Below are positions 23,739 to 25,033 of a DNA stretch of 64,000 nucleotides, piece after piece. The notes beneath the pieces are model-generated. The model saw nothing but the letters and a program-made list of their open reading frames with translations, was not told the origin of the DNA and did no database searches. The first letter of the stretch is position 1; each line of letters begins with the position of its first letter. Made by a program: the position numbers and the translations under genes. The stretch spans positions 1,054,001 through 1,118,000 of the forward strand of contig JABAQM010000001.1 in the NCBI GenBank assembly GCA_019187105.1, written 5' to 3'. This stretch comes from Fimbriimonadaceae bacterium (lineage in GTDB: Bacteria > Armatimonadota > Fimbriimonadia > Fimbriimonadales > Fimbriimonadaceae).

Positions 23739-23872
23739 ATACGCCCGAACATCGGGCCTTACTTCGGCTTCCGAAGAAACCGATCGACCACGTGAAAAAG
23801 AGCAACGATTCTGTTTCAAGGAAGGTCGACCCCGTGTCCCGTAACCCGGACCCCGGCCCAGCAACCCTTATA

Positions 23873-25033
23873 ATGAAATGCATGCTCTCCGCCCTACTTG
23901 CCCTCGCCATTCCCCAGGCAGTCGAACCCAATGCCGACAACTACCGGACCTGGCTGAAGTTCATCCAGCCCGACGCCAAGGAGCAGGCGTACAAGGAAAT
24001 TCCGTGGCGAAACCATTTCTGGACGGCGGTGCAGGAAGCGAGAACCCTGGGCCGGCCGATCTTGCTCTGGACGATGAACGGACATCCGCTCGGCTGCACG
24101 TGAAACAATGGCGTCCGCGGACGCCAGCTGGTCTGGTCAGACCCTGAAATCAAAAAGCTCAGCAGCGAGTTCGTTACCGTCGCCGACGAGGCTTACTACC
24201 TCTATCCCGAAAATCCCCAGCATCTGGAGCGAGCCCGCTCTCGCGAGGATCACCAGTTCTTCCGCCGCTATGGCGAGGCGATGCCAAAGGGCGACTGGAA
24301 TGCCGGCACGAAGCAGGGGATCTATATGATGGGGCCGAACGCGGAGTATCTGGAAGGACGCTTCGCCGCATCGGGCGAACCCGCCGATATCCGTGCCAGG
24401 CTGCAGCGTGCTCTCGATCGGTGGCAGAAGCTGAAGTCCGAAAGGGCCTACGCCGATAAGCCGATTCCACCCAAGGCATGGTCGCCTCCACCTGGGATAG
24501 AGGGGGAACTCGTCTTCCGTGTGAGCCTGCGCGACCTACCGCGAGGGAATGGCGACCGAAGCGGGGTGCGGCGGCATGAGCTGCCTGAATCGGGCATGTG
24601 GCGCGACTTCGTTCGATGGGCTTGGAACGAGAACTGGATCGCGCTCGCATCGGCTTCGATGCTCGTCCCCAAGGGCAACGACGCCGAAGCGGTCGATTCC
24701 GTGATCGTTAACCGTATCGCGCGCGAGGTCATCGTCGACAATGTCCGCGGCCAGGCGCCGGCGTGGCAGCCAGGCGAGGTTGTGGGCGCCAACCTGACGA
24801 TGAAACGGCTCGATACCCGGACCATCGAATACACCGGCGAGGTGGACTTGAGAGCGGGTGGCCGCAGCATCGTCGGCAAGATCTATGGTCGCGGCACTTG
24901 GACGGGCAAGTCCTTCGAGAGCCTGGACCTCGTGATGCTCGGTATGCGCCGGGGGGCATCCCGATTCAACCAGCGCGAAAACGACCCCGGACCGGCGTCG
25001 ATCGGGATAACGCTTAGTCTGAAACGACAGTAG
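23873..25033 (+). CDS. Thioredoxin-like secreted protein with in-frame UGA (candidate selenoprotein)
   Basis: ATG 23873 (or 23882) starts a signal peptide (MLSALLALAIPQA). Next come a helix and a thioredoxin-like strand (RPILLWTMNGHPLGCT), then TGA at 24101-24103. The frame goes on without a break as NNGVRGRQLVWSDPEIKK and on to the TAG at 25031, 386 residues in all. Cys-Thr-UGA sits where thioredoxins carry their redox pair, so Sec (or Cys in relatives) is reasonable. The region after it (GTKQGIYMMGPN ... LQRALDRWQKL) resembles, from memory, planctomycete proteins of unknown function. No usable start lies between the TGA and 24281. A GGUC hairpin follows (separate entry). A nonsense mutation is the alternative. 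Confidence 0.65.
24125..24146 (+). other. SECIS-like hairpin after in-frame TGA
   Basis: GGTCT (24130-24134) pairs with AGACC (24139-24143) around the tetraloop GGTC (24135-24138). Below a two-base CT bulge, CAG (24125-24127) pairs with CTG (24144-24146). The loop begins 31 bases after the TGA. The GGUC loop and a pyrimidine bulge on the 5' side recall the E. coli fdhF SECIS upper stem. A second perfect hairpin (24109-24126) lies just before it. Confidence 0.55.

Follow-up and report, generated by a model that had tools for sequence, protein, structure and literature searches.

The question raised by this locus is whether a single TGA codon within an otherwise long reading frame is a stop, an error, or a codon for selenocysteine (Sec). 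It lies in a window of 64,000 nucleotides from a Fimbriimonadaceae bacterium (assembly GCA_019187105.1, contig JABAQM010000001.1, positions 1,054,001 to 1,118,000), and "the window" here always means that whole stretch. The initial annotation had described a 386-residue frame with one in-frame TGA at 24101, and re-reading the frame at 23873-25033 of the forward strand gave the same picture: 386 codons, with the TGA (U77) at 24101-24103 as sole interruption and a TAG stop at 25031. On comparative evidence, without experiment, we consider it nearly certain that this is a selenoprotein gene. The Sec insertion proposed in the initial annotation is supported by the machinery of the genome, the conservation of the TGA and the hairpins behind it, and none of the observations that would have refuted it (a genome without the machinery, a sequencing error, or relatives with unrelated residues and no hairpin) was made.

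Judged from the alignment of homologues, ATG 23882 is a more likely start than ATG 23873 (Table 1). A TANNNT motif lies 5-8 nt upstream of a start in 17 of 23 genes of subfamily A, to which the window gene belongs, compared with about three expected from shuffling. As the spacing between the TATAAT box and ATG 23882 recurs in most subfamily A genes, this suggests that the transcripts are leaderless and that 23882 is the start. No conserved neighbour gene was found across the 12 subfamily A loci examined, which therefore offer no operon clue. An Rfam search around the window gene returned only matches at chance level, and a plasmid search returned no match.

Table 1. Features of the selenoprotein gene, in positions of the window
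Feature	Position	Strand	Remarks
TATAAT -10 box	23869-23874	+	7 nt upstream of ATG 23882; leaderless-type promoter
Putative selenoprotein gene	23882-25033	+	383 aa from ATG 23882 (386 aa from ATG 23873); homologues align to MLSALLAL...
N-terminal hydrophobic segment, probable signal peptide (approximate; inferred)	23882-23929	+	hydropathy
Thioredoxin-fold domain, residues ~40-190	23990-24442	+	AlphaFold model and fold match 3f9u
Cys75 of CxU motif	24095-24097	+	Cys at -2 or -1 in 124/132 Sec contexts and 0/14 non-Sec contexts
UGA codon, Sec77	24101-24103	+	directly before helix 78-87
Hairpin 1, GGCGTC-CGCG-GACGCC	24110-24125	+	between UGA and SECIS loop; conserved in subfamily A
SECIS hairpin GGTCT-GGTC-AGACC	24130-24143	+	GGUC loop 24135-24138; loop start 31 nt after UGA
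C-terminal beta-rich domain, residues 213-386	24509-25030	+	AlphaFold model

The source genome (3.3 Mb in 2 contigs, 99.55% complete) was searched for selA, selB, selC and selD, and all four were found: SelA at 445 bits, SelB at 355 bits, SelD at 347 bits, and a tRNA-Sec with anticodon tca at 69 bits. The SelD gene (L206, G000:C1:1769561-1770469) contains one internal TGA of its own (SCAGUASK), so that SelD is likely a selenoprotein itself. Across the relatives, SelB exceeded its curated cut-off in 27 of 31 genomes bearing the TGA versus 31 of 70 without it (Fisher p 4e-5), and it was present in all 23 TGA-bearing genomes that are at least 90% complete. The four TGA-bearing genomes without SelB above the cut-off are MAGs of 68-88% completeness, one of which has a SelB fragment. 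Two genomes with a degenerate site (G024 and G045) lack SelB, and two others (G005 and G034) keep a divergent SelB-like gene. A tRNA-Sec above cut-off was also found in three genomes carrying loci of the Planctomycetota type.

Among the 101 relatives examined, 38 have the window protein, mostly with exactly one TGA, and a scan of the genome collection yielded 11 loci in Fimbriimonadales and in MAGs titled Planctomycetota. A family profile matched in 83 of 291 Armatimonadota genomes and in 137 of 392 genomes of the phylum of one Planctomycetota-titled MAG (L023), the weakest matches in both phyla being distant thioredoxin-like proteins. Because this profile was built with C replacing U, Cys forms would have been favoured in the search. 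The site codon, read in 149 distinct contexts, was TGA in 132, Asp in 6, Ser in 6, Cys in 4 and Pro in 1, and TAA or TAG never occurred there. We also ran a test that needs no profile, in which the pattern H-P-x-[GA]-C-T-(TGN)-N/G-N-G, with any TGN allowed, was sought in 683 genomes of the two phyla. Among the matches listed, the codon was TGA in 43/43 and 87/87 cases, or 130/130, with TGC, TGT and TGG at none of these sites, and reversed control patterns gave no match among those listed. The TGA is thus kept in many independent assemblies, including a complete genome (CP075364, L019), and the protein sequence is conserved on both sides of it. The relatives keep the TGA together with conserved hairpins rather than unrelated residues without one. 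These sequences form a large family, spread over Armatimonadota and Planctomycetota, with the motif W-x-M-N-G-H-P-x-[GA]-C-T-U-[NG]-N-G. The source genome holds a second member on the minus strand (L059, G000:C1:1332006-1333121), which reads GCTUNNGLWDR and whose hairpin, 19 nt after the UGA, is of the subfamily C type. Elsewhere, a genome with intact copies also holds one member with four TGA codons and one TAG (G117:C93:71435-72457), apparently a pseudogene.

The SECIS of E. coli fdhF has a GGUC apical loop and lies in frame just downstream of the UGA. The window hairpin has a GGUC loop as well, but it differs in its 31 nt spacing and in the conserved hairpin that precedes the SelB-type hairpin. 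The initial annotation had noted a GGUC-loop hairpin with its loop beginning 31 bases after the TGA, and this was recovered at 24130-24143; its five-pair GGTCT/AGACC stem is kept in 22 of 23 subfamily A relatives, and the lower CAG/CTG stem that had been drawn beneath it is not conserved. The hairpin meets the loop and spacing terms of the bSECIS model, which calls for a loop of 3-9 nt starting with G and then G or U, 16-37 nt after the UGA (PMC13188914). Its energy of -7.6 kcal/mol (bSECIS limit -7.5) is not below that of synonymous resamples (p 0.7), and folding of the window sequence alone is unremarkable (z -1.55). A generic test of hairpin energy by synonymous resampling gave a modest excess over the whole family, with a mean z of -0.89 and 18% at p <=0.05, and none for subfamily A, and it was superseded by codon tests specific to the register of the hairpin. 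The significance comes from the family-level data (TCA in 23/23; TGA in 130/130) and not from the window hairpin alone.

Each of the three subfamilies has a different G[G/U]-loop hairpin 3' of the UGA, upheld by unusual synonymous codons. In subfamily A the rare Ser codon TCA is used in 23/23 genes at a hairpin position, compared with 7-11% elsewhere in these genes; the hairpin of subfamily B uses Arg AGA/AGG in 31/53 (background 8%) and that of subfamily C Arg CGT in 25/56 (background 11%), while hairpin 1 of subfamily A uses Gly GGA in 20/23 (background 13%). In all three subfamilies, the conserved positions with the strongest codon bias anywhere in the gene follow closely on the UGA. Full SECIS stems are seen in 96% of subfamily A, 54% of B and 70% of C, against 11%, 1% and 16% under synonymous resampling, and the full stem of hairpin 1 is seen in 83% of subfamily A against 8%. 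The frames align without indels just after the UGA, and yet the loop stands at +31 in subfamily A, +22 in B and +18/19 in C. A covariance comparison of relatives, proposed in the initial annotation as a check, was positive for subfamily C, where paired sites covary beyond codon-controlled permutation (z 6.4, p 0.0005); permuting codons within columns revealed nothing in subfamilies A and B, because the paired sites there hardly vary. Because the sequences share ancestry, the codon and stem counts show constraint rather than independent events. We infer that hairpin 1 probably serves to fold out the extra distance between the UGA and the SelB hairpin in subfamily A.

The site reads Gly-Cys-Thr-Sec-Asn-Asn-Gly, so that Sec does not adjoin Cys, as had been supposed; Thr76 stands between Cys75 and Sec77 in a CxU arrangement. 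The family does not meet the criterion of a classical thioredoxin site (CxxC, UxxC or CxxU). CxU is found in 110 contexts, CU in 14. In one subfamily (L070-L073 and L075) the Cys directly precedes Sec (GDPRGHCUQNGVKTR), the partner having moved by one residue. The pair is not universal, as 8 of the 132 Sec contexts have no adjacent Cys, but the absence of Cys at -2 or -1 from all 14 non-Sec contexts points to a joint function of the two residues. Loss of the TGA leaves a codon for Ser, Asp or Pro and is accompanied by loss of the nearby Cys. A quick FastTree tree implies at least six changes from Sec to another residue, of which only one (L078) leads to Cys. This protein is the only clear family member with Cys at the Sec site, in a rearranged motif (SCDDCNA), and the other three contexts with Cys (L079-L081) belong to distant proteins whose match is confined to the surroundings of the active site. 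Relatives with Cys at this position, expected in the initial annotation as support for Sec, are thus essentially absent. Judged by these sequences, Sec is practically never exchanged for ordinary Cys in this family. On two contigs, a Sec copy adjoins a Ser or Asp copy (L148/L183 on G403:C37; L146/L156 on G454:C321).

An AlphaFold model with Sec modelled as Cys (mean pLDDT 94.3, pTM 0.90) supports the thioredoxin-like fold that had been read from the sequence. The thioredoxin domain matches 3f9u (Z 13.1, rmsd 1.8, 104 aligned), AGR2 (Z 11.2) and DsbD-gamma (Z 9.9), although sequence support for the likeness to 3f9u is weak (profile match E 0.033). In the model, the first active-site helix (78-87) begins right after Sec77, which is the place expected of the redox residue in a thioredoxin fold. 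A fold search with the C-terminal domain found no convincing PDB relative, the best hits being generic beta barrels (Z up to 7.2). A strongly hydrophobic 10-mer occurs within the first 35 aa of 88% of the scored family members, which makes export likely on hydropathy alone.

Together, these results make it all but certain, on comparative and not experimental grounds, that SelB, bound to the hairpin or hairpins 3' of the UGA at 24101, delivers Sec-tRNA, and that the ribosome inserts Sec77 and completes a protein of 383-386 residues. In one genome, a single in-frame stop left by a sequencing error or a decaying pseudogene would look the same. Such a nonsense mutation has next to no standing here, since well over 100 genes from the two phyla share the TGA at this codon, one of them in a finished genome, with conserved protein on either side, neither of the other stop codons at the site and TGA at every pattern site; conservation refutes this reading. 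The inserted residue itself is without direct proof, so that UGA could be read as Trp or another residue, or be passed by readthrough independent of SelB. We regard this as very improbable, since TGA is an ordinary stop elsewhere in the window, where it terminates 18 of 40 long ORFs, SelB co-occurs with the TGA, the SECIS-like hairpins are conserved, TGG stands at 0/130 sites, and the residue is functionally linked to the neighbouring Cys. It is only marginally less improbable that the family is a catalogued one, either the VPGUxxT thioredoxin-like selenoproteins or Trx7/PDZ, which the models failed to recognize. Some distant members do match NF041382/NF041383 (best E 4e-6) and NF041199 (1e-3) weakly, but with 12-27 bits against cut-offs of 275-350 and over only 60-90 N-terminal residues. 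Moreover, neither NCBIfam nor Pfam matches the window protein at E 1 or below, no VPGUxxT member exceeds the cut-off in the 101 related genomes, and the motif is absent from Table 1 of PMC13188914.

The main functional rival follows from the apparent inability of Cys to replace Sec: the residue may be inserted and yet bind a metal or a selenium species, in a chaperone, storage or sensor protein, rather than catalyse thiol redox chemistry. That Sec gives way to Ser or Asp and not to Cys, as if a thiol were no substitute, fits such a role, as do the unusual CxU or CU motif and the fused beta domain of unknown role. We nevertheless think a binding role unlikely, given the thioredoxin fold, a Sec that opens the helix in the manner of redox thioredoxins, and the Cys two residues away in most members. 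Cys75 and Sec77 are inferred to be a probable selenenylsulfide/selenol redox pair, and the C-terminal domain may, speculatively, hold a substrate or partner. That the protein is exported and uses this pair to reduce disulfides or peroxides in the cell envelope is an inference to which we give slightly better than an even chance.

By the sources consulted, the family appears to be new and undescribed: no Pfam or NCBIfam (June 2026) model covers it, and its motif is absent from the 119-family prokaryotic selenoprotein catalogue of PMC13188914, a review from 2026. The VPGUxxT proteins are likewise thioredoxin-like selenoproteins and share a weak N-terminal profile likeness with some distant members, but their Sec motif differs, the window protein itself has no match to them, and neither their curated cut-off nor their VPGU motif is met. 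The fold is common to Thioredoxin_7 (PF13899), DsbD-gamma, AGR2-AGR3 and 3f9u-type proteins, in contrast to which the family has CxU with surrounding inserts instead of CxxC, and an extra C-terminal beta domain. The PF13899 gathering cut-off was not reached: 7 of 49 members had a match with E no higher than 0.1 (lowest 2.3e-4; L070 with 18.6 bits against 27), and the window protein did not match. A CxU motif is also found in the thioredoxin-like selenoprotein Sec.1 (PF13192; PMC13188914, Table 1), but no scanned family member matched PF13192. The distant Cys proteins L079-L081 (SMFGxxDExxPCANAR) align a Cys with the Sec position in similar active-site surroundings, but they match over only ~70 residues and are unlike the family in motif and overall protein. 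As they exist, the absence of Cys forms can be claimed for the family, not for the superfamily.

Cys homologues at the Sec position are customary support for selenoproteins, not a strict requirement. According to the authors of deep-Sep, every selenoprotein known so far seems to have Cys homologues, and any that lacks them may be lost by their method (PMC12013277). The present family comes close to being an exception, if it is not one outright, and we think it reasonably probable, though by no means settled, that it is the first effectively Sec-obligate bacterial selenoprotein family, with a SECIS re-formed at three places and one tandem two-hairpin type. If so, loss of Sec would mean loss of the redox pair and not its replacement, more than 100 genes in two phyla would have no Cys orthologue in the standard motif, and SECIS positions would differ along an unshifted coding frame. 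Current finders rely on Cys/Sec pairs, an assumption that a widespread family without Cys forms contradicts; this suggests that selenoprotein families without Cys forms systematically escape detection and stand in databases as truncated entries. The family is also a natural setting in which to test why selenium is indispensable to some proteins, and its SECIS variants are natural material for work on the tolerance of SelB to changes in spacing and hairpin position. To two phyla with little-described selenoproteomes it contributes a redox protein. Apart from this, four distant relatives carry GRCUGGA (L082, L154, L195 and L196), one of them with a C-terminal DNRLRE domain, and these are possibly another undescribed selenoprotein family.
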